Assembly (NCBI RefSeq): GCF_010731855.1
Contig: NZ_AP022620.1
Span: 1,302,001-1,366,000 of the forward strand
From: Mycolicibacterium anyangense
Lineage (GTDB): Bacteria > Actinomycetota > Actinomycetes > Mycobacteriales > Mycobacteriaceae
Direction of reading: 5' to 3'
Length of the DNA: 64,000 nt
The position numbers and the translations under genes are program-made. Under the pieces are notes generated by a model. It had not been told where the DNA came from, did no database searches, and saw only the letters and a program-made list of their open reading frames with translations. Position 1 is the stretch's first letter, and the number at the start of each line of letters is the position of its first letter. Below, one piece after another: positions 6,467 to 44,562 of this stretch.

Positions 6467-6471
6467 ACCGG

Positions 6472-25524: not shown

Positions 25525-26721
<1,197 letters not shown>

Positions 26722-28723: not shown

Positions 28724-29530
28724 TCACATATGGGCGCCGCCGTCGACACGAACCTCGGTGCCCGAGACGAAGAAGGCGTCAGGACTGCCGAGCATCGCCA
28801 CCACCGCGGCCACCGCAGCCGGATTGGCGAAGATCGCGCCGTCCGGCAACGGCAGCAGCGGAGCGACGCGGCCGAACAGCTTGTAGTTGACGTCCTGGGG
28901 CAGCCCGGGGCCCACGCTCTGTTTCGACTCGCCGCTGCCGTCGGTCATTCCGGATGAGATCGAGCCGGGCTGCACCGAGTTGAATCGGATGCCGTCGGCG
29001 GCGAACTCGGCGGCCAGGGCGTGCGTCATCGCCTGGACGCCGCCCTTGGAAGCGGCATAGGCCGACATATAAGGATGGGCGAACGCCGCCGACGTGGAGC
29101 TGAAGTTGACCACTGCCGGCGAATTGCCGTCACGCAGGGCGGGCAACGCTTCGCGGGTGACCAGGAAGGTGCCCACCAGGTTGACCCGAAGCACCTGTTC
29201 GAAGTCGGCCAGCGAGGTGTCCGCGAAGTGTGCCGATCGCAGGATGCCGGCCACGTTCACGAGAGTGTCTAGCCCACCGAGTACGGAGACGGCCTCGCGG
29301 ACAGCGGCTTTCACGGAGTCCTCGCTGCCGACATCCATCACCACCGTGGACAACCGGTCCACCTCGGCGCCGGCCTTGGCGGTGGTGTCCTTCAGGCCGG
29401 ACTCACTGATATCGGCGGCCACCACCCGACCACCCTCGTCGAGGATGCGCAGTACGCATGCCTGGCCGATACCGGAACCGCCACCGGTGATCAGGACTCG
29501 ACGATCGGCATAACGCTCGATGCTGGCCAT
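28724..29530 (-). CDS. Short-chain dehydrogenase/reductase
   Basis: A 268-residue classical SDR using NAD(P)H. The cofactor motif TGGGSGIG is at residues 15-22, and the catalytic Ser (FSST, about 144-145), Tyr158 and Lys162 (YAASK) are all present. The C-terminus FVSGTEVRVDGGAH is typical. It starts at ATG 29530 after AAGGAG. It lies head-to-head with the Mce operon across a 318-bp regulatory region and ends against the TetR gene. A hydroxysteroid or hydroxyacyl substrate would fit its surroundings, but the sequence does not show this. Confidence 0.9.
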   Translation of the reverse strand: MASIERYADRRVLITGGGSGIGQACVLRILDEGGRVVAADISESGLKDTTAKAGAEVDRLSTVVMDVGSEDSVKAAVREAVSVLGGLDTLVNVAGILRSAHFADTSLADFEQVLRVNLVGTFLVTREALPALRDGNSPAVVNFSSTSAAFAHPYMSAYAASKGGVQAMTHALAAEFAADGIRFNSVQPGSISSGMTDGSGESKQSVGPGLPQDVNYKLFGRVAPLLPLPDGAIFANPAAVAAVVAMLGSPDAFFVSGTEVRVDGGAHM

Positions 29531-29703: not shown

Positions 29704-29720
29704 ATCTCGATTCGCGAGAT
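29704..29720. promoter_or_regulatory. Inverted repeat in the SDR/Mce regulatory region
   Basis: ATCTCG (29704-29709) and CGAGAT (29715-29720) form a perfect 6-bp inverted repeat with a 5-nt centre. It lies 47 bp before the KstR-type site. It may be a second operator; no regulator is assigned. Confidence 0.35.
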
Positions 29721-29766
29721 CTGCTTCCAGACCGGCGTCAAGTGAACTACTCTGCCAAGGCGCCAC

Positions 29767-29780
29767 TGAAACGTGTTCCA
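29767..29780. promoter_or_regulatory. KstR-type operator upstream of the Mce operon
   Basis: TGAAACGTGTTCCA matches the published KstR consensus TNNAACNNGTTNNA at every fixed position. The palindrome extends to ACTG...CAGT on both sides (29765-29782). It overlaps the proposed -35 and lies about 70 bp before yrbE. KstR represses cholesterol-uptake and degradation genes in mycobacteria and is released by a cholestenoyl-type CoA ester. Confidence 0.65.
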
Positions 29781-29848
29781 GTTTTATTGACGCGTTGGTA
29801 CATAGCCCGAGGTCTGCCCGGCACGACGATGGAGGCTCTGAACACGAA

Positions 29849-30658
29849 ATGACAAACCGCGCAGCAGATCGATGGTCACCGGGCATTGCTCTTCGCAATG
29901 GTGTGTCCGGGCCGATGCAAGCAATCGGTGGCTTGTTTGCGATGTCTGCTGATGCCGTTCGCTATGTCTTCCACAAGCCGTTCCAGTGGCGGGAGTTCTT
30001 GGAGCAGTCGTGGTTCGTGGCCCGGGTGTCGTTGGCGCCCACGTTGCTGGTGGCGATCCCGTTCACGGTGCTGGTGTCGTTCACATTGAACATCCTGTTG
30101 CGGGAACTGGGCGCGGCCGATCTCAGCGGGGCCGGAGCTGCGTTCGGCGCGGTGACCCAGGTGGGTCCGTTGGTCACGGTGTTGATCGTGGCCGGGGCGG
30201 GCGCCACCGCGATGTGCGCCGATCTGGGGTCGCGCACCATTCGCGAGGAGATCGACGCGATGGAGGTGCTGGGCATCAATCCGGTCCAGCGCCTGGTGAC
30301 TCCGCGGATGCTGGCCTCCGGACTGGTCGCCTTGTTGCTCAACAGCCTGGTGGTGATCATCGGCATTCTGGGTGGGTATGTCTTCTCGGTGTTCGTCCAG
30401 GACGTCAATCCGGGCGCGTTCGCGGCCGGTATCACGCTGCTGACCGGGGTGCCCGAGGTGATCATCTCGTGCGTCAAAGCCGCATTGTTCGGCCTGATCG
30501 CGGGACTGGTGGCCTGCTACCGGGGGTTGACCATCTCCGGTGGTGGCGCCAAGGCGGTCGGTAATGCGGTCAACGAGACGGTGGTCTACGCGTTCATGGC
30601 GTTGTTCGTGGTCAACGTGGTCGTCACGGCCATCGGCATCCGAATGACCAGCCGGTAG
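29849..30658 (+). CDS. yrbEA: YrbE-family permease A of an Mce transporter
   Basis: A 269-residue MlaE/YrbE-type permease, first gene of the Mce operon. It has five or six hydrophobic segments and the family loop around DLGSRTIREEIDAMEVLGIN, where the EExDAMxxLG motif is diagnostic. With YrbEB it forms the inner-membrane core of an ABC-like lipid importer powered by an MceG-type ATPase encoded elsewhere. ATG 29849 is preferred over the ORF start at 29795 because the protein then begins near the conserved region. The nearest GGAGG is 13 nt away, longer than usual. Confidence 0.92.
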   Translation: MTNRAADRWSPGIALRNGVSGPMQAIGGLFAMSADAVRYVFHKPFQWREFLEQSWFVARVSLAPTLLVAIPFTVLVSFTLNILLRELGAADLSGAGAAFGAVTQVGPLVTVLIVAGAGATAMCADLGSRTIREEIDAMEVLGINPVQRLVTPRMLASGLVALLLNSLVVIIGILGGYVFSVFVQDVNPGAFAAGITLLTGVPEVIISCVKAALFGLIAGLVACYRGLTISGGGAKAVGNAVNETVVYAFMALFVVNVVVTAIGIRMTSR

Positions 30659-30669
30659 AGGAACCCACC

Positions 30670-31515
30670 ATGGCACTCCCAGCGGTCTATCCGCGACTGA
30701 CCCGGCAACTCAAGCGCCCCATCGGGACGCTGGGGCGCATCGGTGATCACACCTTGTTCTATGCCCGGGCCATCGGCGGGACCCCGCATGCGGCAATACA
30801 TTTCCGCAAGGAGATCATCCGGCTGATCGCCGAGATCTCCATGGGTGCGGGGACGTTGGCGATGATCGGTGGGACGGTGGTCATCGTCGGCTTCCTGACG
30901 CTGGCCGCCGGTGGCACGCTGGCGGTGCAGGGTTACAGCTCGTTGGGCAACATCGGGATCGAAGCGCTCACCGGCTTTCTGGCGGCGTTCATCAACGTGC
31001 GGATCAGCGCGCCCGTGGTCGCCGGCATCGGACTGGCCGCGACGTTCGGTGCGGGTGTGACCGCGCAACTGGGTGCCATGCGGATCAACGAGGAGATCGA
31101 CGCGCTCGAGTCGATGGGCATCCGGCCGGTCGAATACCTGGTGAGCACCCGAATCGTGGCCGGGATGGTGGCGATCACGCCGCTGTACTCGATCGCGGTG
31201 ATCCTGTCGTTCCTGGCATCCCAGTTCACCACCGTGGTCCTGTTCGGTCAGTCCGGTGGCCTCTACGAGCACTACTTCACCACGTTCCTCAATCCGATCG
31301 ACTTGTTGTGGTCGTTTCTGCAGGCGGTGTTGATGGCGATCACGATCCTGTTGATCCACACCTACTTCGGTTATTTCGCCACCGGCGGCCCGTCGGGAGT
31401 CGGTGTCGCGGTGGGCAACGCGGTGCGGACGTCATTGATCGTCGTGGTCTCGGTGACCCTGCTGGTGTCGCTGGCCATTTACGGCTCCAACGGCAACTTC
31501 AACCTGTCCGGATAG
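30670..31515 (+). CDS. yrbEB: YrbE-family permease B of an Mce transporter
   Basis: A 281-residue YrbE/MlaE permease, the partner of YrbEA. The diagnostic loop is LGAMRINEEIDALESMGI, and the C-terminal part contains the long conserved TYFGYFATGGPSGVGVAVG. It starts 11 bp after YrbEA with GAGGAA as ribosome-binding site. Both permeases are full length, so the transporter core looks functional. Confidence 0.94.
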   Translation: MALPAVYPRLTRQLKRPIGTLGRIGDHTLFYARAIGGTPHAAIHFRKEIIRLIAEISMGAGTLAMIGGTVVIVGFLTLAAGGTLAVQGYSSLGNIGIEALTGFLAAFINVRISAPVVAGIGLAATFGAGVTAQLGAMRINEEIDALESMGIRPVEYLVSTRIVAGMVAITPLYSIAVILSFLASQFTTVVLFGQSGGLYEHYFTTFLNPIDLLWSFLQAVLMAITILLIHTYFGYFATGGPSGVGVAVGNAVRTSLIVVVSVTLLVSLAIYGSNGNFNLSG

Positions 31516-31527
31516 GCGAGGAACCCG

Positions 31528-32715
31528 ATGACATCAGGTATCGCCCGCCCGCTGGCGGGCTTGGCGACCGTCGTGGCGCTGGCGGCGATCGTCGCCGTCG
31601 CTATCGGCCTGTTCAACGACAGCTTCACCAAAACTGTTCCGGTAACGGTCATTTCGGATCGTGCTGGCCTGGTGATGAACCCCGAAGCCAAGGTCAAGAT
31701 CAACGGTGCCCAGGTGGGCAGGGTAGCCTCCATCGACTCGCTGCCCGGCGGGAAGGCGGCCCTGCACCTGGCGATCGACCCCAAGATGGTCGACGTCATC
31801 CCGGACAACGTCGGCGCCGACATCACCTCCTCGACGGTGTTCGGGTCCAAGTTCGTCGAATTGGTCCCGCCTGCGGATCCCTCGGCACAATCGTTGCGTG
31901 CAGATCAGGTGATCCAGGGCAACCACGTCACCGTCGAGATCAACACCGTGTTCCAGCAGCTGGTCAATGTGCTCTCCGAGATCGAGCCGGCAAAGCTGAA
32001 CCAGACCCTCGGTGCCATTGCGAAGGGTTTCAACGGACGCGGCCAGAAGTTCGGTCAGTCGCTGGTCGATCTCGACTCGGCACTGGCCAAGCTGAACCCG
32101 AGTCTGGACACCCTCAACCACGAGATCGCCGTCGCGCCACCGGTCTTCGACGCCTATGCCGCGGCCTCCTCGGATCTGGTCTCGACGGTCGACAACGCCA
32201 CCAAGATCAGCGACACCATCGTCGACCAGAACCAGAACCTCGACGCCCTGCTGGTCAGCGCGATCGGTCTGGCCGACGTCGGCACCGAGGTGCTGTCCAC
32301 CAACCGCCAGGCACTCACCGACGTCCTGCATCTTCTGGTGCCGACCACCGATCTGCTCAACCAGTACAACGCCGCGCTGAACTGTGGGATCGCCGGTCTG
32401 GTCCCGTTGGCGACCGGACCTGGCCAGCCGCTACCCGGCGTGATGCTGCTGCAGTCCTTCTTCCTGGGTCGCGAGCGCTACCGGTACCCACAGGACCTGC
32501 CGAAGGTCGCCGCCAAGGGTGGTCCGCAGTGCACGGACCTGCCCAAGGTGCCGTTCGAGAAGAGCGCCCCGTTCGTGGTCGCCGATATCGGCACCAACCA
32601 GGCCCAGTACGGCAACCAGGGCATCCTGCTGAACTCCGACGCGCTCAAGCAGGCGTTGTTCGGACCCATCGACGGGCCGCCCCGCAACACCGCACAGATT
32701 GGACAGCCCGGATGA
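31528..32715 (+). CDS. mceA: Mce protein A
   Basis: A 395-residue Mce-family protein. A single N-terminal transmembrane helix or uncleaved signal (about 12-32) is followed by the MCE/MlaD beta-barrel domain (about 40-115, containing ISDRAGLVMNPEAKVKINGA and VGRV) and a long helical region of the Mce4/CUP1-type. Mce subunits assemble into an elongated, lipid-conducting shaft across the envelope. It starts 12 bp after YrbEB. Its stop overlaps MceB as ATGA. Confidence 0.93.
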   Translation: MTSGIARPLAGLATVVALAAIVAVAIGLFNDSFTKTVPVTVISDRAGLVMNPEAKVKINGAQVGRVASIDSLPGGKAALHLAIDPKMVDVIPDNVGADITSSTVFGSKFVELVPPADPSAQSLRADQVIQGNHVTVEINTVFQQLVNVLSEIEPAKLNQTLGAIAKGFNGRGQKFGQSLVDLDSALAKLNPSLDTLNHEIAVAPPVFDAYAAASSDLVSTVDNATKISDTIVDQNQNLDALLVSAIGLADVGTEVLSTNRQALTDVLHLLVPTTDLLNQYNAALNCGIAGLVPLATGPGQPLPGVMLLQSFFLGRERYRYPQDLPKVAAKGGPQCTDLPKVPFEKSAPFVVADIGTNQAQYGNQGILLNSDALKQALFGPIDGPPRNTAQIGQPG

Positions 32716-33737
32716 CCGCGACGTGGAAGACCCTCGTCAAGGTCGGCATCTTCGGGGTCGTGATGTTGCTGCTGACCGGCGCGTTGTTCGCGATCTTCGG
32801 GCAGTACCGATCGGGGTCGGACAACAGCTATTCCGCCGAGTTCGCCGACGCATCGAGCCTGAAGTCCGGAGATTCCGTGCGGGTCGCCGGCGTGCGGGTG
32901 GGCACGGTCACGGATGTGGCGCTGCAACCGGACAACAAGGTCATCGTCGACTTCGACGCCGACCAGAAGATCGTCTTGACCCAGGGCACCAAGGCCGTGG
33001 TGCGGTACCTGAACCTCGTCGGTGACCGCTACCTGGAGTTGGTGGACAGTCCCGGGTCGGGCAAGATCCAGCCAGCCGGCTCACGTATTCCATTGGACCG
33101 CACCGAACCGGCGCTGGACCTCGATCTGCTGCTGGGCGGCCTCAAACCCGTTGTGCAAGGGCTCAACCCGCAAGACGTCAACGCATTGACCAACTCGCTG
33201 ATCCAGATCCTGCAGGGCCAGGACGGCAACCTGGAGTCACTCTTCTCCAAGACCGCGTCGTTCTCCACCGCGCTCGCCGACAACGGCCAGACCGTGCAGG
33301 CCCTGATCGACAACCTCAACACGGTGGTAGCCACCATCTCCAAGGACGGCGACAAGTTCTCCGGCGCCGTCGACAAGCTCGAGAAACTGGTCACCGGCCT
33401 GGCCGCGGACAAAGACCCGATCGGTGAGGCGGTCACCGCACTGGACAACGGCACCGCCTCGCTCACCGACCTGCTCGGCCAGGCGCGGGCGCCGCTGGCC
33501 GGAACCATCGACCAGCTCGGCCGACTGGCGCCGCTGCTCGATCAGGACAAGGAGCTCTTGGACATCTCCATCCAGAAGGCGCCGAAGAACTACCGAAAGC
33601 TGGTGCGCCTCGGCGCCTACGGCAGCTTCCTCAACCAGTATCTGTGCGGGCTGTCATTCCGGGTGACTGACCTGCAGGGTCGCACCGCCTACTTCCCCTG
33701 GATCATCCAACACAGCGGAAGGTGTGGGGAGCCCTGA
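32712..33737 (+). CDS. mceB: Mce protein B
   Basis: A 341-residue Mce-family protein with an N-terminal hydrophobic helix (about 8-28), the MCE domain (SYSAEFADASSLKSGDSVRV, then VAGVRVGTV) and a helical tail ending in a Cys-containing segment (YLCGLSF and HSGRCGEP). It overlaps MceA by 4 nt and MceC by 1 nt. The frame is open far upstream inside mceA, but the ATG at 32712 gives the expected N-terminus. Confidence 0.92.
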   Translation: MTATWKTLVKVGIFGVVMLLLTGALFAIFGQYRSGSDNSYSAEFADASSLKSGDSVRVAGVRVGTVTDVALQPDNKVIVDFDADQKIVLTQGTKAVVRYLNLVGDRYLELVDSPGSGKIQPAGSRIPLDRTEPALDLDLLLGGLKPVVQGLNPQDVNALTNSLIQILQGQDGNLESLFSKTASFSTALADNGQTVQALIDNLNTVVATISKDGDKFSGAVDKLEKLVTGLAADKDPIGEAVTALDNGTASLTDLLGQARAPLAGTIDQLGRLAPLLDQDKELLDISIQKAPKNYRKLVRLGAYGSFLNQYLCGLSFRVTDLQGRTAYFPWIIQHSGRCGEP

Positions 33738-34834
33738 TGCTCAAATACCGCGGTTCCTCTCTGATCAGGTCGGGGTTCATCGGGCTGGCGTTGATCGTGC
33801 TCGTGATCACGGTCGGGCTCGCGCCCGAGCGAATCCTCACCTGGGCCACATCGGTCAAGCATCAGGCACTGTTCACCGAAGCCGGCGGGCTGCAGACCGG
33901 CAACGACGTCAAGGTATCCGGCGTCAAGGTGGGCACCGTGTCGGACGTGTCGCTCGACCACGGCAAGGCGCTGGTGACCTTCATGGTGAAGGGCAATGTG
34001 CGTCTGGGCTCGGACACCACGGCCCACATCCGCACCGGAACCCTTCTCGGGCAACGCATCCTGACCCTGGAGTCCAACGGCAAGGGCAACCTGAAGTCTG
34101 CTGACGTGATCCCGGTTTCGCGCACCGGCGCCCCGTACTCGCTGTCCGATTCGCTCTCGGAGTTCACCGCGAACACCGCCGACACCGACACCGCCGCACT
34201 GAATCAGTCGCTCAACACTCTGTCGGACACCCTGGACCGGGTGGCGCCCCAGATCGGACCGACCTTCGACGGTCTGAGCAAGCTGTCGCGCACGCTCAAC
34301 GAGCGCAATGAGTCCCTGGCCAGCCTGCTCAAGAGCGCCGCGAACGTGACGAGCATCCTGGGGGAGCGCAGCCAGCAGGTCAACACGCTGCTGCTCAATG
34401 CCAATGATCTGGTCGGCGTGCTCGCCGATCGGCGGTACGCGATCGTGAACCTGCTGGCGAATACCTCCGCATTGTCCAAGCAGCTGTCCGGCATCGTCGC
34501 CGACAACGAGAAGGAGTTGGCCCCGGCGTTGGAGAAGCTGAATTCGGTGACGGCGATGTTGGAGAAGAACAACGACAACATCACCGCCGCCATGAAGGGC
34601 CTGGCCAAGTACCAGATCACCCAGGCCGAGGCGGTCAACAGCGGGTTCCTCTACAACGCGTTCGTGACGAACCTCAACCCGATGCAGACGGTGCAGCCGT
34701 TCCTGGACTACGCGCTCGGCTTCCGCCGCGGCATCGATGCCGGCCAGCCGCCGGACAACGCCGGACCGCGCGCCGAGATTCCGTTCCCGTACAACGGCAT
34801 TCCGCAGCCCAATGAGCGATGGGGGCAGCCATGA
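33737..34834 (+). CDS. mceC: Mce protein C
   Basis: A 365-residue Mce-family protein. A membrane helix at about 14-34 precedes the MCE domain (ALFTEAGGLQTGNDVKVSGV). A helical coiled region of about 200 residues follows, and a Pro-rich tail closes the protein. Start is the ATG in the TGATG overlap with MceB; stop overlaps MceD as ATGA. No truncation is seen. Confidence 0.92.
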   Translation: MLKYRGSSLIRSGFIGLALIVLVITVGLAPERILTWATSVKHQALFTEAGGLQTGNDVKVSGVKVGTVSDVSLDHGKALVTFMVKGNVRLGSDTTAHIRTGTLLGQRILTLESNGKGNLKSADVIPVSRTGAPYSLSDSLSEFTANTADTDTAALNQSLNTLSDTLDRVAPQIGPTFDGLSKLSRTLNERNESLASLLKSAANVTSILGERSQQVNTLLLNANDLVGVLADRRYAIVNLLANTSALSKQLSGIVADNEKELAPALEKLNSVTAMLEKNNDNITAAMKGLAKYQITQAEAVNSGFLYNAFVTNLNPMQTVQPFLDYALGFRRGIDAGQPPDNAGPRAEIPFPYNGIPQPNERWGQP

Positions 34835-36309
34835 CCCGCAAGAAGATCACGGTCGTTGCCGCGGTGATCCTGGCGCTCCTGGTCGCCGGCGGGGTCACGC
34901 TGTTGGTGCGCCAGGCATTCTTCAAACCGACCACCATCACCGCCTACTTCACCAGCGCCACGGCGATCTACCCGGGCGACGAGGTCCGGGTGGCCGGGGT
35001 GAAGGTCGGCACCATCAAGTCGATCGACGCGCAGGGCACGAAGGCCAAGATGACGCTCGCGGTCGACCGCGACGTGGCTATTCCGGCCAACGCCGAGGCG
35101 GTGATCGTCTCGCAGAACCTGGTCGGCGCCCGCTACGTCCAGCTCACCCCGCCGTACGAGGACAGCGGGCCGAAGATGGCCGACGGAGCCGTCATCGGAC
35201 TCGACCGGACCGCAGTCCCCGTCGAGTGGGACGAAGTCAAGACCCAATTGACGCGTTTGGCAACGGATTTGGGGCCCAAAGATGCCGAGTCCACGACCGC
35301 TGTCAGTCGCTTCATCGACAGCGCAGCCAACGCGCTGGATGGCAATGGCCAGAAACTTCACGACACCATCGCTGAGCTGTCCGGGGTGAGCCGGGTACTC
35401 GCCGACGGCAGCGGGAACATCGTCGACACCATCAAGAACCTCCAGATCTTCGTCACCGCTCTGCGCGACAGCAATGTCCAGATCGTCCAATTCCAGGACC
35501 GACTGGCCAGCCTGACCAGCGTGGTGGACGGCAGCAGAACGGATCTGGACGCCGCGCTGACGAACCTGTCCAGTGCGGTGGTGGACGTCCAGCGCTTCAT
35601 CGCCGGGAGTCGCAACCAGACCACCGAGCAACTGCAGCGTCTGACGAGCGTGACCAAGAACCTCGCCGACAACCAGATGGTGCTGAAGAATCTGCTGCAC
35701 GTGGCGCCCAACGCCATCGGCAACGCCTACAACATCTATGACCCCGACACCCAGAGCGCCATGGGTGGTTTCGCGCTGGCCAACTTCGCCAACCCGGTCG
35801 ACCTCGTCTGCAGCTCTATTGCGGCGATCGAGAATGCCACCGCAGCCGAGACCGGCAAACTCTGTGCCCAGTACCTGGGCCCCGCGCTGCGGTTGCTGAA
35901 CTTCAACTATCTGCCCCTGCCGTTCAACAGCTACCTCGGCAAATCACCGAGTCCGGAGAATCTGATCTACTCCGACCCGGCGATCGCACCCGGCGGCTCG
36001 CGGTATGCCCCGCCCGCGGAGATCCCGCCGGCAGTATCGGCCTACACCGGCTACAACGGTGACGTGCCGGGCCCGGCCGGTTGGGGCGTTCCGCCTGCCG
36101 ATCCCAATTTCCGCGGGGCATACACGCCCAACGGTCTGCCCGCCGATCCGCAGCCCGCGCTGTACCCGGGAGCTCCCGTTCCGCCCGGCGTTCCGGCCGC
36201 GGTCACCGGGCCCGCCGCGCCGCCACCGTCGACCGTCGAAGGCATGCTGCTCCCGGCCGAATCACCGCCTGCGGCAGCACCACCTGCCGAAGGGACACCG
36301 CCATCATGA
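34831..36309 (+). CDS. mceD: Mce protein D
   Basis: A 492-residue Mce-family protein. The N-terminal membrane helix (about 8-28) is followed by the MCE domain (AIYPGDEVRVAGVKVGTI), the helical region to about 330, and a C-terminal tail of about 130 residues very rich in Pro, Ala and Gly. Such tails are usual for MceD and probably extend through the cell wall. ATG 34831 is used because of the ATGA overlap with MceC. Confidence 0.92.
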   Translation: MTRKKITVVAAVILALLVAGGVTLLVRQAFFKPTTITAYFTSATAIYPGDEVRVAGVKVGTIKSIDAQGTKAKMTLAVDRDVAIPANAEAVIVSQNLVGARYVQLTPPYEDSGPKMADGAVIGLDRTAVPVEWDEVKTQLTRLATDLGPKDAESTTAVSRFIDSAANALDGNGQKLHDTIAELSGVSRVLADGSGNIVDTIKNLQIFVTALRDSNVQIVQFQDRLASLTSVVDGSRTDLDAALTNLSSAVVDVQRFIAGSRNQTTEQLQRLTSVTKNLADNQMVLKNLLHVAPNAIGNAYNIYDPDTQSAMGGFALANFANPVDLVCSSIAAIENATAAETGKLCAQYLGPALRLLNFNYLPLPFNSYLGKSPSPENLIYSDPAIAPGGSRYAPPAEIPPAVSAYTGYNGDVPGPAGWGVPPADPNFRGAYTPNGLPADPQPALYPGAPVPPGVPAAVTGPAAPPPSTVEGMLLPAESPPAAAPPAEGTPPS

Positions 36310-37583
36310 CCCGCCATGACTCGGCGCGCCGGCTGGCCGTGATCGCGACCTGTGTCGCGATCAGCACCAGTGGCTGCGCCTTCGGGGGCCTGAACTCGCT
36401 GCCCCTTCCGGGCACCGTGGGGCACGGTGAAGGATCCAAGACCTACCATGTGGAGCTCGCCAATGTCGGCCAGCTCGAATCGAATTCGCCGGTCCTGGTC
36501 GGGGATGTCGTGGTCGGCAGCGTCGGCAAGATGACGGTCAGTGATTGGCACGCCGATGTGGAGATCTCGGTGAAGCCAGGGATCGTCATCCCGGCCAACG
36601 CGGTGGCGACGGTCGGTCAGACGAGTCTGCTCGGATCAATGCATCTGGGCTTGAACCCGCCGCTCGGCGAGGCGCCCAGCGGCGTGCTGCAGCCCGGTGC
36701 CACCCTGGGGCTGAACCGGTCCTCGACCTACCCGTCGACCGAGCAGACGCTCTCGGCGTTGTCTGTCGTGGTCAACGGCGGCGGCCTGGGCCAGATCGGC
36801 GACATCGTCCGGGAATTCAGCGGGGCGTTGAACGGCCGTGAGGACAAGATCCGCGATCTACTGACCCAGCTCAACGACTTCGTCGGACTGCTCGCCGAAC
36901 AGCGCGACAACATCAACGCGGCGGTCACCTCGCTGAACAATCTGGCCGGCACGTTTGCCGGCCAGCGGGAGGTCCTGACCAACGCGCTCAACCGGATCCC
37001 GCCCGCACTCGACATCCTGGTCAACGAGCGGCCGCGCATCACCACTGCGCTGGAAAAGTTCCGTGATTTCTCCAACCTGGCCACCGGCCTGGTCAACGAC
37101 TCAGGGGCCGACCTGGTGCGGAACCTGCAGAATCTGGAGCCCACGTTGAAGGCGCTCGCCGATGTCGGGCCGAAGCTCGATACCGCCCTGGCGTACTTCC
37201 CGACGTTCCCGTACACGCAGAGCGTCGTCGACCGTGCCATCCGCGGCGACTACATGAACCAGTTCATCACCTTCGACTTCACCGTGCCGCGGCTCAAGCG
37301 AGCCCTCTTCCTGGGCACCAGATGGGGCGATCCGAACGCGAAACTTGTTCCCGCGCCGGGTGATCCGTTCTACGCGACGTACACTTACGATCCGCTGCAG
37401 GCACCACTGACGCCGACGCCCGCTCAGCTTGCCGACCTCCCACCGCTGGTCGACCCGCCGGCCTCGGCGCGGAGTTCGCAGTCGGCATTGAACGCCGACA
37501 CCTCGGCGGCTCACGGCACGGGCACCGGTCCGCTACCCGGACCGGCGCCCGATGCGGCGCCGCAGGACGGAGGTGGCAACTAG
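36306..37583 (+). CDS. mceE: Mce protein E, lipoprotein
   Basis: A 425-residue Mce-family lipoprotein. The signal peptide ends in the lipobox STSGC (acylated Cys about residue 24), as is typical for MceE/LprK proteins. The MCE domain follows (YHVELANVGQLESNSPVLVG), then a helical section and a Pro/Ala-rich tail. ATG 36306 overlaps the MceD stop as ATGA. It is likely anchored on the periplasmic side of the membrane and steadies the Mce shaft. Confidence 0.92.
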   Translation: MTRHDSARRLAVIATCVAISTSGCAFGGLNSLPLPGTVGHGEGSKTYHVELANVGQLESNSPVLVGDVVVGSVGKMTVSDWHADVEISVKPGIVIPANAVATVGQTSLLGSMHLGLNPPLGEAPSGVLQPGATLGLNRSSTYPSTEQTLSALSVVVNGGGLGQIGDIVREFSGALNGREDKIRDLLTQLNDFVGLLAEQRDNINAAVTSLNNLAGTFAGQREVLTNALNRIPPALDILVNERPRITTALEKFRDFSNLATGLVNDSGADLVRNLQNLEPTLKALADVGPKLDTALAYFPTFPYTQSVVDRAIRGDYMNQFITFDFTVPRLKRALFLGTRWGDPNAKLVPAPGDPFYATYTYDPLQAPLTPTPAQLADLPPLVDPPASARSSQSALNADTSAAHGTGTGPLPGPAPDAAPQDGGGN

Positions 37584-37585
37584 CG

Positions 37586-39178
37586 ATGTTGACCCGTTTC
37601 GTTCGTAACCAGCTGATCATCTTCACGATCGCCTCGATCATCGGGATCGGTGTGATGGTGGTGGCCTACCTGCAAGCTCCAACGCTGCTCGGGATCGGCC
37701 GCATGACCGTGAAGCTCGAGCTGCCCAGGACCGGTGGCCTCTACCAGTTCTCGAATGTGACCTATCGCGGCGTGCAGCTGGGACGGGTCACCGAGGTCCG
37801 CCCGACCACAACCGGGGCAGAGGCCACCCTGTCGCTGGCCACCTCGCCGAAGGTGCCCGCCGATCTGCAGGCCCGGGTGCTGAGCGTGTCGGCGGTCGGC
37901 GAGCAGTACGTGGACCTGGTGCCACGCACCGACGCCGGACCGTACCTGGAGAACGGCTCGGTGATCCCGGTGAAGAACACCACCGTCCCGCAGGCGGTGG
38001 GACCGATGCTCGATCAGGTCAGTGCGCTGCTCAAGAGCATCCCGAAGGAGCGGATTCCCGATCTGCTCCAAGAGACGTTCACGGCGCTCAACGGAACCGC
38101 CGACAACCTGAGTGTGCTGGCCGATTCGGCGTCGCGGCTGGCCGCCGACTTCAACAGCTCTGGGGATCAGGCCCGTACGCTGATCGAGGACAGCCGTCCG
38201 CTGCTCGACGGCCAGCTGGCCTCGACCGATTCCATCCGGACGTGGGCGCGCAGCCTGGCTGGTGTCAGTGGCCAGCTGGTGACCGATGACCCGCAGTGGC
38301 GCGCGATCCTGCAGAACGGGCCGGGCGCAGCCGACGAGGCGTCCGCCCTGCTGAACCAGGTGAAGCCGACTCTGCCGGTACTGCTGGCCAACCTGACCAC
38401 CGTCGGCCAGGTGGGCGTGACGTACCACGCGTCGCTCGAGCAGCTGCTGGTGTTGCTGCCGCCTTACATCGCGTCCATCCAGTCGATCGGCCCGATGAAC
38501 AATCCGGTCGGGATGGCCAAGGGCGACTTCACCGTCGGCATCAGCGATCCGCCGGCGTGCACGGTGGGCTTCCTGCCGCCGTCGTCCTGGCGATCGCCTG
38601 CCGACCTCTCCGATGTCGACACACCGGACGGGCTGTACTGCAAACTGCCACAGGACTCTCCCATCGCGGTCCGCGGCGCCCGCAACTACCCGTGCCAGGG
38701 GCAGCCGGGCAAACGCGCCCCCACGGCCGAGATGTGCGAGAGCGACAAACCGTTCGAACCGCTTGCCATGCGCCAGCATGCGACGGGACCGTCGCCCATC
38801 GATCCGAACCTCATCTCGCAGGGGATTCCGCCCGATGACCGGGTGACCCTCAACGACAACATCTACGGGCCGCTCCAGGGCACACCCCGGCCACCCGGGC
38901 CCGCGCCCGCTGCGGCTCCGGTGGCGCCGGCCGCAGGACAGGTGCCTGCACCGGTACAGCCCACGGCCCCGGTGCCGAACCTCGCCCCGATGGACTCCGG
39001 TGGCGCAGTGGCGCCGAGTGCATTCACCGGCGGACCCACGGGCCCCTCGGTGGCTATCGCGACGTACGACCCGACGACCGGTCAGTACGCCACCCCCGAC
39101 GGCAGCGTGTTCCGGCAGTCGGATCTGGTGAAGCCGGGTGCCGAGCGGTCGTGGAAAGACCTGTTGCCCACGACATGA
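37586..39178 (+). CDS. mceF: Mce protein F
   Basis: A 530-residue Mce-family protein, last of the six. The N-terminal helix (about 9-29) precedes the MCE domain (LPRTGGLYQFSNVTYRGVQL). The helical region has several Cys residues in the second half (CTVGF, YCKLP, YPCQG, MCES), and a long Pro/Ala tail follows. It starts 2 bp after MceE. The next gene follows without a terminator. Confidence 0.92.
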   Translation: MLTRFVRNQLIIFTIASIIGIGVMVVAYLQAPTLLGIGRMTVKLELPRTGGLYQFSNVTYRGVQLGRVTEVRPTTTGAEATLSLATSPKVPADLQARVLSVSAVGEQYVDLVPRTDAGPYLENGSVIPVKNTTVPQAVGPMLDQVSALLKSIPKERIPDLLQETFTALNGTADNLSVLADSASRLAADFNSSGDQARTLIEDSRPLLDGQLASTDSIRTWARSLAGVSGQLVTDDPQWRAILQNGPGAADEASALLNQVKPTLPVLLANLTTVGQVGVTYHASLEQLLVLLPPYIASIQSIGPMNNPVGMAKGDFTVGISDPPACTVGFLPPSSWRSPADLSDVDTPDGLYCKLPQDSPIAVRGARNYPCQGQPGKRAPTAEMCESDKPFEPLAMRQHATGPSPIDPNLISQGIPPDDRVTLNDNIYGPLQGTPRPPGPAPAAAPVAPAAGQVPAPVQPTAPVPNLAPMDSGGAVAPSAFTGGPTGPSVAIATYDPTTGQYATPDGSVFRQSDLVKPGAERSWKDLLPTT

Positions 39179-39192
39179 CAGGAGGTGGCTGG

Positions 39193-39708
39193 ATGCGTAT
39201 GACACCAACGCTGGTGGCCGCGACGGCGCTGGCCGCTACCGTCGTCGGCGCCAACCTGAACCCGGCAACGGCGCAGGCCTCGGACCAATGGGCGCTCAAC
39301 GGGACGTTCATCGCGACGTCCAACGGCGAGTGGGCCACCAATAACGACGTGTTCCACGACGAGAAGAGCATCCGCAGCATCTGGACCATCTCCTCGCAGT
39401 GCAGCTATCCCACCGAGTGCACCGGCACCGTGTCCAGCGACTGGGGCTGGACGGCACCGATCTACCAGACCGGGGGAGAGTGGTACGTCAAGCGGGTGAT
39501 CCCGGATTGGATGCCCTGCTATGACGGGTCTTCGGCACCTGGAAAGCAGGTGTACCGGTTCCACGGCGTCACCCCGGATGGTTCGGCGTCCGATCCGACG
39601 TCGAACATGTTGGTGGGGGAGGACGGCACCACCGGGGCCCCCGGTGGATGCGGGCGGAGCGCGCCGCTCTACATCAGCATGCCGTTCAAGCTGGTCAAGC
39701 AGACCTGA
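39193..39708 (+). CDS. Secreted Mce-associated protein
   Basis: A 171-residue protein with a cleavable signal peptide (hydrophobic stretch about 6-20, probable cleavage after TAQA). The mature part contains six cysteines in patterns such as QCSYPTEC, PCYDG and GGCGRSAP, suggesting disulfide-bonded secretion. I chose the ATG at 39193 because AGGAGGT (39180-39186) lies 6 nt upstream; an earlier ATG at 39175 overlaps the MceF stop. Co-transcription with the Mce genes suggests a role at the cell surface in the same transport process. No known domain is recognised. Confidence 0.78.
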   Translation: MRMTPTLVAATALAATVVGANLNPATAQASDQWALNGTFIATSNGEWATNNDVFHDEKSIRSIWTISSQCSYPTECTGTVSSDWGWTAPIYQTGGEWYVKRVIPDWMPCYDGSSAPGKQVYRFHGVTPDGSASDPTSNMLVGEDGTTGAPGGCGRSAPLYISMPFKLVKQT

Positions 39709-41245
39709 CCGGCCTGCCGGCCATGTCGAGAGCGGCCAGATGGCTGAACAACATCGACGCGCCGATCGGATTCCCCCCACCGGGATAGGTGGTGCCGCTG
39801 ACCGCCGCCATGGTGTTGCCCGCGGCGTACAATCCCGGGATCGGCACACCGTCGCCGTCGAGGACCCTGGCCTGTGCGTCGGTGCGCAGACCGCCCTTGG
39901 TGCCCAGGTCGGACAGGCCGAACGCGGCTGCGTGAAATGGTGGTTGGTCGACGGGAACCAGCGGTGAGCGTCCCTGCGAGAACGCCCGGTCGTAGGCTTC
40001 GTCACCCCGGCCGAAGTCGGTGTCGGCACCGTCGGCGACCATCTGGTTGAACCGCGCCACCGTCCGTTCCAGAGCGTCGGCCGCCACACCGATCGACTCG
40101 GCTAGCTCCGCGAGAGTGGTTGCGGTAAGCCATAACCCGGCGTCCCGATAGCGCTCGGTTTCCACCATCGACACGTTGGTCGCCTTGACCGGTGGCACCT
40201 CACCCTCCCGATCGTCGTAGATCATCCACAGCGGTGTGTGCAGCTGGCCGGCCTGCATCTCGTCGATGATGGCCCGGCCGATGCGGTCATAGGCGGCCGA
40301 TTCGTTGACGAAGCGCTGGCCGGCGTCGTTGACGAAAATGCCGCCGGTGAACCACAGCGCGAACGCCGAGCGGCCGTCGGGATGGGTCAGCCCGGGGGAC
40401 CACCACGCCTGGTCCATCAGGTCCAGGCTGGCACCCGCTCGAATCGCGGCCTGCAGCGCAGCGCCGGTATTACCGGGGCAGCCCATCGAGTCGGTGGGAT
40501 CACCCGGTACGCCGTAGCGCTGTCGCAGTTCCGGGTTGTGCTCGAATCCACCGGCGGCCAACAGCACCCCGCGCCGTGCTCCGATCCGCACCTGTTCGCC
40601 GTCGCGGCGCACCACGGCACCGACCACGCGGCCGCCATCGATGATCAGGTCGACCAGTTCGGCATTGCGGTACAAGGTGGCATCGGGAAAACCGCTCAGC
40701 GCGGCCAGGAACCGGCCGATCAGCGCGCGGCCACCGAACAGCTTGCCCGGAGCCGGCGCGCCCAGCCGCTCGGTGTCCAGTGGGCCCCCGACGGTACCCG
40801 CGTAGGGTCCCAGTTTCTCGTCGCGGATCGGCACGGCGACGATGTGGCGCAGCCCGTCGGTGCGGGCGTCAGGCGCCTTGCCGAAGTAGTCCGGCCATGG
40901 CAGTACCGTGAACGCGAAATTCTCGTCGGCTTCCAGGTATTCGATGAGGGCGGCGCCACCGCGTACGTAGGCGTCCTGCAGGTCGCGCGGAGTTCGATCG
41001 CCCACCACGGAATGGAAATAGTTCAGCGCGCGCTCGACGGTGTCGTCACTGCCTGCGCGTTGCAGAACGGGGTTGCAGGGAAACCACATACCGCCACCAC
41101 CGGAATAGGCTGTGGTGCCGCCGAATTTCCCGGTGGCCTCGGCCAGGACCACCGAAAGCCCCTCACGCGCCGCGGTATACGCGCCGGTGATGCCGCCACC
41201 GGAGCCGGCGACGACGACGTCGACAGTCTGATCGAACGGCGGCAT
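39695..41245 (-). CDS. 3-ketosteroid delta-1-dehydrogenase-like FAD protein
   Basis: A 516-residue FAD-dependent oxidoreductase of the KstD/fumarate-reductase flavoprotein family. The dinucleotide fold GSGGGITGA (about residues 14-22) is followed by FGGTTAYSGGGGMWFP, a segment close to KstD enzymes. The C-terminal GTTYPGGGNPIG contains the conserved Tyr and Gly of KstD active sites. KstD introduces a C1-C2 double bond into 3-ketosteroids before ring opening. Exact substrate is uncertain, since related enzymes accept 3-ketosteroid derivatives of different side chains. It is last in an operon with HsaC- and HsaA-like genes and ends in a 14-bp convergent overlap with the secreted-protein gene. 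Confidence 0.8.
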   Translation of the reverse strand: MPPFDQTVDVVVAGSGGGITGAYTAAREGLSVVLAEATGKFGGTTAYSGGGGMWFPCNPVLQRAGSDDTVERALNYFHSVVGDRTPRDLQDAYVRGGAALIEYLEADENFAFTVLPWPDYFGKAPDARTDGLRHIVAVPIRDEKLGPYAGTVGGPLDTERLGAPAPGKLFGGRALIGRFLAALSGFPDATLYRNAELVDLIIDGGRVVGAVVRRDGEQVRIGARRGVLLAAGGFEHNPELRQRYGVPGDPTDSMGCPGNTGAALQAAIRAGASLDLMDQAWWSPGLTHPDGRSAFALWFTGGIFVNDAGQRFVNESAAYDRIGRAIIDEMQAGQLHTPLWMIYDDREGEVPPVKATNVSMVETERYRDAGLWLTATTLAELAESIGVAADALERTVARFNQMVADGADTDFGRGDEAYDRAFSQGRSPLVPVDQPPFHAAAFGLSDLGTKGGLRTDAQARVLDGDGVPIPGLYAAGNTMAAVSGTTYPGGGNPIGASMLFSHLAALDMAGRPVRSA

Positions 41246-41246
41246 G

Positions 41247-42155
41247 TCAGGGCCGCATGGCAGCCGGAAGGTCGCTGACCCACTGGTGACCCCAGTAGCT
41301 GTCGGCGGTGATTTCCTCAGCCGTGTAGTGGGTTTCGTCGATCCGCAGGCCGCCGGTGCCGAACTCCATGTCCCAATCCCCGGGCGCGCGGACGTAGAAC
41401 GACACCATCTTGTCGTTGGTGTGCCTGCCCAGAGTGGAGGACAGCTGGAAGCCTTCCCTGGTCACCCGGTCAAGTGCCGCCCCGACGGCGTCGAGGCTGT
41501 CGACCTCGACCATCATGTGGATCAGGCCCGGATCGCGCAGGGTGGTCGCCGGGGCGATCGCCAGGCTGTGATGCCGCTCGTTGACCCCGAGGAACCTGAT
41601 CCGGATCGGACCGAACTCTTTGGGTAGCGGCACCCGGAAGGCGCCGCGGGACAGGAAACCCAATGTCTCGGTGTAGAACTCGAACAGCGCGTTGGCATCG
41701 AGCGCCGGCAGCACAACATGTCCTAGGCCCTGGTCGCCGGTGACGAAACGCGCACCGTACGGTGTCACCACCGGGCTGTGGTCGAGCACCGCGCCGTGGA
41801 ACACCTCGACGGTGTTGCCCGCCGGATCGTCGAAGGTGATGACCTCCTCGACTCGGCGGTCGTCGGCCTCACCCTGCGAGAGTTGCTTGTGCGCAACGCC
41901 TGCGGCATCCAGGGTCCGGCGCACCCGCTCGAGTGCGATGCGGTCACGAACCTCCCACCCGGAGGCGACGATCCGGTCCCCGTCTCCGGGCGTGACGATG
42001 ATGCGGGCAGCCCGCTCGTCCATCCGCAGATACAGCGAGTCCGGATCGGGTCCCTTGCCTTCGGCGAAACCCAGCAGAGTGAAGGCGAACTGGCGCCAGC
42101 GCTCGATGTCGGCGGTATGGATCGTGACGTAGCCAAGACTGGAAAACAGGCTCAT
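41247..42155 (-). CDS. Extradiol dioxygenase, HsaC-like
   Basis: A 302-residue type-I extradiol ring-cleavage dioxygenase with two vicinal-oxygen-chelate modules. The Fe(II) ligands are His146 (GLGHVVLP), His213 (LIHMMVEV) and Glu264 (DMEFG), in the same positions as in M. tuberculosis HsaC, and length also matches. HsaC cleaves the catecholic ring (3,4-DHSA) made during cholesterol degradation. This is likely a paralogue for a similar catechol. The gene is 13 bp downstream of the HsaA-like gene and 1 bp from the KstD-like gene. Confidence 0.87.
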   Translation of the reverse strand: MSLFSSLGYVTIHTADIERWRQFAFTLLGFAEGKGPDPDSLYLRMDERAARIIVTPGDGDRIVASGWEVRDRIALERVRRTLDAAGVAHKQLSQGEADDRRVEEVITFDDPAGNTVEVFHGAVLDHSPVVTPYGARFVTGDQGLGHVVLPALDANALFEFYTETLGFLSRGAFRVPLPKEFGPIRIRFLGVNERHHSLAIAPATTLRDPGLIHMMVEVDSLDAVGAALDRVTREGFQLSSTLGRHTNDKMVSFYVRAPGDWDMEFGTGGLRIDETHYTAEEITADSYWGHQWVSDLPAAMRP

Positions 42156-42168
42156 CGAGTCTGCCGCC

Positions 42169-43350
42169 TCAGATCATGGCCCGCAGCGGACCCTGGGGTT
42201 CGACGCCGAAGGAGCTGAGCGCGGAGGCGTGGAAGACGGTGCCCGGCACGTGGATCGCGTGCGCCATGCCGGTGTGGGCGTCGCGCCAGTAGCGCTGCAA
42301 CGGCTTGTCCATCCGCATCCCGTTGCCGCCGGAGCGGGAGAAGATCTGGTCGACGGCCATCACCGCACGCCAGACCGCACGGACCTGGGTGCGCCGGCCC
42401 GCAGCGCGGTCGGCGAAGGTCACCTCCTTGCCGGAGTCGACCATGTCGTAAATGCGGTCGATGTTGGCCAGGATCTCCTGGCGGGCGGCATTGATGTCAG
42501 CCGCAGCCTCGCCGATCGCGTACATCACGTACGGGTCGTCCTTGACGGCGGTGCCGGCGGCGTTGACCCGCTCACGTTGATAGTCCAGATGGGCGGCCAG
42601 CGCGCCTTCGCAGATGCCGATGGTGGCCGCCGAGATGCCCAGCGGGAACATCGACGACCACGGCATCAGATAGAGCGTGTCGGTCATCCCGGCCTCCCGC
42701 TGGGCGGTGCCGTCCATCACCTTGAACGCGTCCATGGTGCGGTAGTCGGGGACGAACGCGTTGCGCACGATCACGTCCTTGGACCCGGTGCCGCGCAGAC
42801 CCACCACGTCCCAGGAATCCTCGACGATCTCGTAGTCCTTGCGGGGCAGAATCATGTGCAGCATTTGCGGCGGCATGACCGGCTTGCCTTCGGCATCCCC
42901 GAGCAGCGCGCCCAGGAAGATCCAGTCGCAATGATCAGTGCCGGAGCTGAACTGCCAGCGGCCGTTGAAGATGTAGCCACCGTCGACGGGTACCGCGACG
43001 CCCTGGGGCGCGTACGGGGAGGCGACCCAGGTGTCGACGTCGTCGGCCCAGATCTCGGCGGCCACCCGCGGATCGGCGTAGGCCAGCTGGTAGGGGTGCA
43101 CACCGACAACCCCGTTGATCCAGCCCGCCGCCGGGTCGAGCGCGGCCGTCGCCATGACGGTCTCGGCGAACTCCCGCGGATGCACCTCGAGGCCGCCGTG
43201 CTCCTTGGGTTGCAGTAGGCGGATGTTGCCCGCCGACTTCATGATCTTGACGGTCTGCTCGGTGAGTTTGCCGATCTTCTCGGCTTCGACGGCGTGCTCG
43301 CGCAATTGGTCGGCAGCGTCCATGACTTTGTCGATAACCCGGGTGGTCAT
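42169..43350 (-). CDS. Flavin-dependent monooxygenase, HsaA-like
   Basis: A 393-residue protein with the acyl-CoA-dehydrogenase fold used by group D flavin monooxygenases such as HsaA, of nearly identical length. Recognisable segments are LLQPKEHGGLEVHPREFAE, WQFSSGTDHCDWIFLGAL and GLRGTGSKDVIVRNAFVP. HsaA hydroxylates the phenolic A ring (3-HSA to 3,4-DHSA) with FMNH2 supplied by the reductase HsaB. No reductase gene lies in this window, so it must borrow one. It starts at ATG 43350 after TGAGGT and is first in a three-gene operon. Confidence 0.85.
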   Translation of the reverse strand: MTTRVIDKVMDAADQLREHAVEAEKIGKLTEQTVKIMKSAGNIRLLQPKEHGGLEVHPREFAETVMATAALDPAAGWINGVVGVHPYQLAYADPRVAAEIWADDVDTWVASPYAPQGVAVPVDGGYIFNGRWQFSSGTDHCDWIFLGALLGDAEGKPVMPPQMLHMILPRKDYEIVEDSWDVVGLRGTGSKDVIVRNAFVPDYRTMDAFKVMDGTAQREAGMTDTLYLMPWSSMFPLGISAATIGICEGALAAHLDYQRERVNAAGTAVKDDPYVMYAIGEAAADINAARQEILANIDRIYDMVDSGKEVTFADRAAGRRTQVRAVWRAVMAVDQIFSRSGGNGMRMDKPLQRYWRDAHTGMAHAIHVPGTVFHASALSSFGVEPQGPLRAMI

Positions 43351-43537
43351 GCGTTTTACCTCATCTGTCGGGCGTGATCACTCCATAGTGCGGCAGCGCC
43401 ACAACCTGCGCGACGACTTGTCTCGATCAGCGGATCCGCGCTCGCTGAGTTCACACATGGGTCATTTTCGTACGGTCACCAACATTGGGCTAATGTCGAC
43501 GAAAACGCTTACGCTGCAATCGAAGTCACGCCGCGCG

Positions 43538-44392
43538 TCAGGCGCGCCGCAGGAAGCCCAGCGCGGTGGACTCGAAGGCCGCCTTCTGTTCGATCATCAC
43601 CCAGTGCCCGCAGTTCGGGAACACGTGCAACTCGGCGTTGGGAATCGTGCGCATCGGAATCAGCGACATGTCCAGCGGGCTCACCCGGTCGTCGCGCCCC
43701 CAGGTCAGCAGCGTCGGCGCCTTGACCTTGTGCATGATCGCCCACGGCAGCGGGAAGTCGGCATTGCGCATCATCTTCGTCATCGCTGCGAAGGCGGCCT
43801 TGCCGTACATCCGCCGCGCACTGGCCAGTGTCTCGGGGTCGGTGGCCAGCTCCCAGCGCTCCTCGATCAGCCTCTCGGTGACCAGCTCGGGGTCGTAGAC
43901 CATCGAGTTGAGCCAGTCCACCAGGCGCTGCCGGGTCGGGTCCTCGGTGAACTCCTGCAGCAGGCGGATGCCCTCGCTGGGGCCGGGGCTGTAGATGTTG
44001 GTGCCGATCCCGCCGATGGTGATCAGCTTGCCGATCCGGTCGGGCTGGGAGATCGCGAAGTTGATCCCGACGCCGCCGCCCATCGAGTTGCCGATCACGT
44101 CGACCTTGTCGACACCGAGGGCGTCGAGGAACACCGGCACTGAGCCCTGTGCGTCCAGCATGGGGTGACCGCCGAAGTCGTCACTGACGCCGAACCCGGG
44201 GAACTCCAGGACGATGCAGCGGAAGTGCTCGGCGAAGAACCCGAGGTTGCCGCGGAAGTTGCGCCAGCCGGTCACCCCGGGACCGGAACCGTGCAGCAGC
44301 AACAGCGGCGGCCCGTCGCCGGCCTCGTGGTAGCGCAGGACGCCCTTGCTGGTGCCGACTTCGCGCAGTGTCTCCGCGTAGGTGATCTCCAC
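43538..44392 (-). CDS. Meta-cleavage product hydrolase, HsaD-like
   Basis: A 284-residue alpha/beta-hydrolase. The oxyanion region LLHGSGPG, the nucleophile elbow GNSMGGG with Ser103, Asp235 in WGRDDRV and His263 in NCGHWV complete the triad. Overall pattern and length resemble HsaD/BphD-type C-C hydrolases, which split the product of extradiol cleavage. The natural start is GTG at 44392, not the longer frame to 44662, which overlaps the divergent gene. It lies 187 bp upstream of the HsaA-like gene and may have its own or a shared promoter. Confidence 0.83.
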   Translation of the reverse strand: MEITYAETLREVGTSKGVLRYHEAGDGPPLLLLHGSGPGVTGWRNFRGNLGFFAEHFRCIVLEFPGFGVSDDFGGHPMLDAQGSVPVFLDALGVDKVDVIGNSMGGGVGINFAISQPDRIGKLITIGGIGTNIYSPGPSEGIRLLQEFTEDPTRQRLVDWLNSMVYDPELVTERLIEERWELATDPETLASARRMYGKAAFAAMTKMMRNADFPLPWAIMHKVKAPTLLTWGRDDRVSPLDMSLIPMRTIPNAELHVFPNCGHWVMIEQKAAFESTALGFLRRA

Positions 44393-44562
44393 GCCTGGTA
44401 TCCGATCATCTGGGCGGCGGTATCTCAACGGCTCGTTCCGGTCAGTGAACGGGCAACATGTGATGCTCGAAGTCGTCACATCAGCCCCAATGGTCACATT
44501 TGTGCTGGTACCCTGCTCTGTGATCCGTGCCAGATCGGGTCCTGCCGGGCGAAGGGGTGGCG

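Follow-up and report, generated by a model that had tools for sequence, protein, structure and literature searches.

Which system imports steroids in a mycobacterium in which no mce4 operon can be found? The question is raised by a locus of Mycolicibacterium anyangense, whose genome is a single contig of 5.70 Mb (NZ_AP022620.1). In the 64,000-nucleotide stretch analyzed (positions 1,302,001 to 1,366,000 of that contig; hereafter the window, in whose numbering coordinates are given), a KstR-type operator precedes an mce operon that converges on genes for KstD-, HsaC-, HsaA- and HsaD-like enzymes of steroid ring opening. In mycolic acid bacteria, cholesterol import is ascribed to Mce4. We consider it probable, with considerable room for doubt, that the mce operon of the window has replaced Mce4 as the KstR-controlled importer of steroids or sterols in this lineage.

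The operator and the operon behind it

The original prediction had placed a KstR-type operator at 29767, and a scan of the window bears this out: TGAAACGTGTTCCA at 29767–29780 is the sole exact match to TNNAACNNGTTNNA in the 64 kb. The box lies in an intergenic promoter and fits the KstR operator motif TnnAACnnGTTnnA (PMC1995591, partial text). The core match alone (expected count in 64 kb, 0.18) does not exclude chance, because at least one match occurs in 17/100 shuffles of the window. With a weight matrix of 22 bp, built from 25 sites (hand-picked, mostly intergenic) out of 33 others read in the same genome, the box reaches 26.2 bits, like other sites of the genome and above 10 of the 25 matrix sites; the runner-up in the window has 9.5 bits. 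The genome-wide scan proposed with the prediction gave 60 KstR-type palindromes versus 30 for the reversed pattern. KstR, without which the prediction could not stand, is encoded in the genome (L039:10478–11188; NF033703, 337 bits vs. a cut-off of 280), and its gene is itself preceded by a KstR-type site.

The box starts 82 bp upstream of the yrbEA ATG (29849) and sits between this start and a TANNNT-like −10 box (29748), a place where a repressor could block transcription. Aligned relatives have TACTCT or TAATCT at the putative −10 position. At the level of sequence, what follows is a complete operon of two YrbE and six Mce genes (YrbE2-Mce6) with a KstR box. The promoter elements, the operon and the facing enzyme genes are:

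29748–29753, plus strand: putative −10 box TACTCT (TANNNT type), directly upstream of the operator, as read from the sequence
29767–29780, no strand: KstR-type operator TGAAACGTGTTCCA (sequence match, matrix score, conservation in relatives)
29849–30658, plus strand: yrbEA, MlaE permease (PF02405)
30670–31515, plus strand: yrbEB, MlaE permease (PF02405)
31528–32715, plus strand: mceA (PF11887, PF02470)
32712–33737, plus strand: mceB, start at 32712 inside a longer open reading frame (ORF) (translation; orthologues by tblastn)
33722–34834, plus strand: mceC (longest ORF, start uncertain; Pfam scan)
34819–36309, plus strand: mceD (longest ORF, start uncertain; Pfam scan)
36306–37583, plus strand: mceE (likely start; longest ORF from 36081)
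37586–39178, plus strand: mceF (Pfam scan)
39151–39708, plus strand: secreted-like ORF of 185 aa with a signal-like N-terminus (no Pfam match; tblastn)
39695–41245, minus strand: KstD-like FAD dehydrogenase (NF009474, 937 bits)
41247–42155, minus strand: HsaC-like extradiol dioxygenase
42169–43350, minus strand: HsaA-like oxygenase
43538–44392, minus strand: HsaD-like hydrolase

The layout is as first described, two MlaE/YrbE genes, six MlaD/Mce genes and one secreted-like ORF facing the enzyme genes. The operons converge, since the 3′ ends of the 185-aa ORF and of the KstD-like gene overlap by 14 bp. The 185-aa ORF adjoins the same mce operon in relatives (tblastn). The genes of the module are open and, judged by ratios of nonsynonymous to synonymous substitution rates of 0.02–0.17 against three relatives (for HsaD over about 100 codons in two relatives), under purifying selection. 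The exact-match and matrix scans of the window found no KstR box at the enzyme operon, so that its control by KstR is not supported.

Absence of mce4 and conservation of the box

The mce4 operon of M. tuberculosis is located between hsd4A and otsA; in the complete genome of M. anyangense these two genes abut. A Mce4A search of 396 congeners found no orthologue in that genome (best match 3.6e-72). The 396 genomes fall into two separated groups, the mce4-positive ones with Mce4A at 8e-130 or better, and those scored as lacking mce4 with a best E-value of 4.5e-97 or weaker. In G004, G029, G050, G020, G337, G093 and G150, hsd4A and otsA are separated by a full mce operon. At yrbE4A of these seven loci, the KstR box reaches at least 19.8 bits in six and 13.6 bits in the seventh. 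Transfer of the box by a promoter transplant from mce4 was considered and rejected, as the seven yrbE4A promoters resemble that of the window only in the box (by eye).

Operons of the window type (MceA at least 79% identical, 25 rows, plus G009 with mceA in two frames) occur in 26/396 genomes of the genus, M. anyangense included. In M. litorale F4 (L101, about 6001–7184), the window-type mceA is in two frames, through either a real break or a sequencing error. The mce4 operon is missing in 22/26 window-type genomes versus 51/370 others (Fisher 3e-14, uncorrected for relatedness; the count of 51 was made by eye and includes many incomplete assemblies, as well as the 19 genomes of the small-genome group treated below). 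In 20/20 readable mce4-less genomes of the window type, M. anyangense again included, the hsd4A and otsA matches are 7–66 bp apart; the interval is unread in G043, which was not searched, and in G300, which gave no hsd4A match.

Promoters were read in 16 of the 25 other holders; those of G024, G043, G198, G300 and G190 are truncated by a contig end, and those of G093, G053, G327 (beginning near a contig end) and G181 were not fetched. The box is kept in 15 of the 16, at about −81 to −87 of yrbEA, with all fixed positions preserved and the two central bases variable (GT or AC); by eye, the flanking promoter DNA appears less conserved. KstR scores above the cut-off in 26/26 window-type genomes. 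The box occurs in 0/22 mce promoters of the sister clade (one of them, L113, being a yrbE remnant only). In the YrbE-MceA tree, from which loci with cut genes and L101 (split mceA) were excluded, the window clade is separated from the sister pair L102/L107 with a support of only 0.64.

Nine other mce loci of the M. anyangense genome were fetched, and none has a KstR box (best score, 10.0); a few weaker Mce-like loci lie outside the nine scanned. L113 (C1:3533815–3553700), another mce operon of this genome (MceA 60% identical), belongs to the same broad clade as the window operon; it has mceA–F, seemingly only remnants of yrbEA and yrbEB, and no KstR box. Elsewhere in the genome (L051:3063), a KstR-type site lies upstream of an orphan MceA-like gene (3315–4556) with no other Mce4_CUP1 match near it.

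The small-genome group comprises 19 mce4-less genomes, mostly incomplete assemblies, with a related operon (MceA 70–76% identical). There, hsd4A is next to otsA in 7/7 readable loci (5–58 bp apart). From this group 15 loci were fetched, of which one is without yrbEA, leaving 14 readable. A KstR box is present in 5/14 of these promoters, near −36 rather than −84, and all five genomes have KstR; in 5/19 genomes searched, all incomplete assemblies, no KstR scored over the cut-off. The small-genome box looks like a second, separate gain. An ancestral box that moved and was then lost in part could also give this distribution, the relevant nodes of the trees being weakly supported. In the hsd4A-otsA tree, the small-genome and window groups come together at a support of only 0.77, and the mce4 holders (G337; G093, G150, G004) are nested inside mce4-less lines; this tree does not decide between a single loss of mce4 with regain and many losses.

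The ring-opening enzymes and the core hsa operon

Judged by their scores, the four enzymes are diverged paralogues of KstD, HsaC, HsaA and HsaD, closest to steroid enzymes. Scores for the NCBIfam equivalogs are all below cut-off (HsaC 369/450, HsaA 373/450, HsaD 269/400 bits), and the HsaC-like protein is barely over the BphC model TIGR03213 (367.5 vs. 366.45). Its best solved structure is 2zi8 (titled BphC; the HsaC of M. tuberculosis) with 294 bits, followed by BphC 1han with 170, a lead of 124. The HsaD-like protein scores 225 bits against HsaD 7zjt versus 190 against BphD 2og1, a lead of 35. For the HsaA-like protein the values are 558 bits for 2or0 (an unnamed hydroxylase), 308 for 3afe, 286 for 2rfq (3-HSA hydroxylase) and 166 for a p-hydroxyphenylacetate hydroxylase structure. 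The steroid affiliation claimed at the outset for the ring-cleavage enzymes is thus upheld as far as bit scores against solved structures go, with the steroid enzymes ahead of the biphenyl and phenol ones. The nearest solved structure to the KstD-like protein is a 3-ketosteroid dehydrogenase, 4c3x, and the alignment with it shows Tyr120, Tyr319, Tyr487 and Gly491 kept. All the catalytic residues given for KstD (Tyr119, Tyr318, Tyr487 and Gly491 in R. erythropolis numbering; PMC5348764, partial text) are therefore present.

Relative to the core copies of the same genome, the HsaC-like protein is 46–47% and the HsaA-like protein 40% identical. HsaC-like proteins (at least 71% identity) are found in 54/98 congeners, M. 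anyangense included; core HsaC stands at about 45–51% among the matches listed.

The core operon of M. anyangense has the order hsaA-hsaC-hsaB; it contains no hsaD, and 45 bp separate hsaA from hsaC. In M. hassiacum, HsaD is listed between HsaC and HsaA (PMC10832570, partial text). Core hsaD is missing at that place in 8/13 window-type relatives and present in the other 5; among other readable genomes it is there in 5/6, the one without being G050, outside the group. These counts concern the place in the core operon, and a copy elsewhere in a genome is possible. Because hsaD is missing from the core place, the HsaD-like gene of the window may serve the core pathway, filling in for it. No flavin reductase family was matched among 30 window ORFs scanned with Pfam, and an hsaB-like gene is present in the core hsa operon, so that HsaB would indeed be supplied from outside the module, as had been proposed. 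Neither a Rieske/KshA-like nor a KshB-like gene was found among the window ORFs scanned.

The original prediction also described the module as accessory and separate from the mce4/hsa core set, and this part is not supported: the searches detected no mce4, and hsaD is lacking at its usual place in the core hsa operon. With mce4 missing from the genome, the module is probably not accessory to it, and because neither mce4 nor hsaD at the core place is there, it may supply the missing core functions.

The distance between the HsaC-like and KstD-like genes is 1 bp in the window, a few bp in M26, G309 and G255, about 80 bp in G170, about 1.4 kb in M. litorale (with an extra FAD gene), about 3–3.5 kb in L059 and L160, and 61 kb in G004. 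This series fits insertion as well as it fits the window being a deletion remnant of a G004-like island. The extra 61 kb of G004 hold genes 58% and 55% identical to own genes taken, by position only, as kshA and kshB. A 485-aa FAD protein (PRK07121 family in G004) follows the HsaC-like gene in M. litorale (L101) and G004 (L109:15694–17151) and is absent from the window. M. smegmatis C-19+ genes probably belong to the same clade as the HsaA/HsaC type of the window. The window mce operon groups with those of clusters that encode HsaC-like proteins of this type, whose MceA proteins are mostly 60–77% identical to its own.

A palindrome, TCCCGCTSAYCGGGA, is present with at most one mismatch in 16/25 island-type loci scanned and in 0/14 control loci of the M. 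anyangense genome, a count to be read with the consensus having been derived partly from the same loci. Its carriers include several promoters of hsaA-like and kstD-like genes and, from the sister clade, five of yrbEA (copies at L107:7775, L102:15928, L057:8719, L108:4651, L112:14976, L126:1754 and others). It is a candidate operator for the C-19+-like cluster's own regulator. Relatives also have a KstR-type site just beyond the island (L114:7434; near 633–712 in L058, L059, L062–L064, L066, L067 and L094), which is absent from the window.

Further features around the module are:

28150–28723 (approximate): TetR gene, candidate regulator
28724–29530, minus strand: short-chain dehydrogenase/reductase (SDR), divergent from the mce operon with a common promoter region
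29704–29720, no strand: ATCTCG-N5-CGAGAT, an inverted repeat that precedes the promoter and is conserved in part among relatives
43421–43435, minus strand: degenerate copy of TCCCGCTSAYCGGGA (three mismatches) before the HsaA-like gene, not significant alone, with more than 30 window places at such stringency

The inverted repeat, as TCTCG-N5-CGAGA, has 19 places in the genome versus 2 for the reversed pattern. The SDR has counterparts on a Nocardia plasmid (74% identity) and on a Rhodococcus plasmid (69%), which share regions of 31–41 kb with HsaC-like genes. A PotA-type ABC ATPase (25525–26553) with same-strand genes to its left forms the conserved other flank of the mce operon. On the enzyme side, an adenylate/guanylate cyclase with a HAMP domain stands beside an MscS channel with a cyclic-nucleotide-binding domain (44527–48179), and this pair adjoins the HsaD-like gene in many relatives.

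Readings of the locus and known systems

Replacement would be the most economical account: after the loss of mce4, steroid import would have passed to a related Mce operon controlled by KstR. KstR binding at the box, induction, substrate and the replacement itself are predictions from sequence, in the following steps. The operon at 29849–39708 is paralogous to the Mce importers found with steroid clusters of the C-19+ type; in this lineage it would have come under the cholesterol repressor KstR, standing in for the missing mce4. Bound to the box, which follows the −10 region closely, KstR would block transcription until released by a cholesterol breakdown product; the KstR ligand is given as 3-oxo-cholestenoic acid or a CoA thioester (PMC5348764, partial text). 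The products of the convergent kstD-hsaC-hsaA-hsaD genes would then open the A/B rings with HsaB contributed by the core operon; the HsaD paralogue may fill in for core hsaD. Tentatively, one may go further: in a lineage that lost mce4, a C-19+-type Mce operon would have been recruited to the KstR regulon on two occasions, with the box at about −84 in one and at about −36 in the other, turning a side-pathway importer into the core sterol importer. In part of the lineage the HsaD paralogue would also have displaced core hsaD, and some members would have regained mce4 later or have kept it during its loss from many sister lines.

Several observations weigh against this. The species are related and not independent, which inflates the association with mce4 loss. 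Four window-type genomes (G004, G093, G150 and G337) keep mce4, and three of them (G004, G150 and G337; the G093 promoter is unread) carry both box and mce4, so the two can coexist. The window MceA is 36–40% identical to Mce4A of the seven mce4 loci, and an equal substrate is not given. A close relative, G255 (L154), has neither mce4 nor the box. Among the small genomes, 9/14 loci are mce4-less and without the box (two with less than 400 bp read); of these nine genomes, five encode KstR and in four no KstR exceeds the cut-off. Finally, G004 and G150 lack core hsaD yet keep mce4, and the losses of mce4 and of hsaD are therefore not one event.

It is less likely that the module is an accessory set for side-chain-shortened steroids (C-19/C-22 type), timed by KstR to recapture leaked intermediates, with sterols entering through other Mce systems or none. 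Its enzymes are paralogues distinct from the core set, as such a role would have it, and KstD1 of R. ruber, identical to the window KstD at the catalytic residues and along G490–P493, favours 9OHAD and testosterone (PMC5348764, partial text). The same excerpt describes KstR-type sites upstream of the R. ruber cyp450-kstD1 genes, where kstD1 may have its own promoter. This reading is at odds with the absence of mce4 here and in 22/26 holders, and with the nine other fetched mce loci being without a KstR box.

More doubtful still is a leftover of a C-19+-like island, with the operon kept for another lipid, the box a trace of old regulation, and sterol uptake poor. The same two ends in relatives, up to 61 kb apart, agree with such an origin, as do the small genomes in which no KstR passed the cut-off (5/19 searched, incomplete assemblies), but the open genes under purifying selection, and the retention of KstR, core hsaA, hsaC and hsaB, KstD-type genes and at least 25 KstR-type sites, speak against decay. 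A chance box, with KstR inactive here, is hardly credible and is rejected: matches in 17/100 shuffles and the boxless G255 would allow it, but 15/16 relatives keep all fixed positions at a similar distance, with a varying center and less similar flanks.

If the window operon did replace Mce4, the lineage would be a natural experiment that shows which properties turn an Mce complex into a steroid importer and how one transporter is exchanged for another within a regulon. Within the literature searched, partly as excerpts and with subscription papers outside its scope, no report was found of mce4-less mycobacteria with another Mce operon under a KstR box.

Like Mce4 (yrbE4AB-mce4A-F), the window operon has two YrbE and six Mce genes and a KstR box at the yrbEA promoter; it differs in belonging to another Mce clade and in being located elsewhere than between hsd4A and otsA. 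Among solved structures, its HsaC- and HsaD-like neighbors are nearest to core enzymes of the cholesterol pathway, and its HsaA-like neighbor is nearest to 2or0, with 3afe and 2rfq (3-HSA hydroxylase) next; the window copies fall under all three equivalog cut-offs. Relative to R. ruber KstD1 and R. erythropolis SQ1 KstD1, the window KstD shares the four catalytic and several pocket residues and, with R. ruber KstD1, the run G490 G491 N492 P493. The R. ruber context is cyp450-kstD1-MFS transporter rather than an mce-hsa module (PMC5348764). As in the C-19+ cluster of M. smegmatis and relatives (PMC5962712, partial text), the window has a second HsaA/HsaC-type set distinct from the core one. The M. 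smegmatis genes MSMEG_2854–2865, including mce genes, were reported to be cholesterol-induced (PMC4881515, partial text), and according to another paper neither phytosterol nor C19 steroids activate the C-19+ pathway (PMC10672877, partial text). In relatives, the HsaA/HsaC paralogues of the window type are part of larger islands that also hold an mce operon and KstD-like genes; the module here is compact, with one KstD, no own Ksh genes found and a KstR box on mce, whereas five mce promoters of its C-19+-like sisters carry the TCCCGCTSAYCGGGA palindrome instead of the KstR box.

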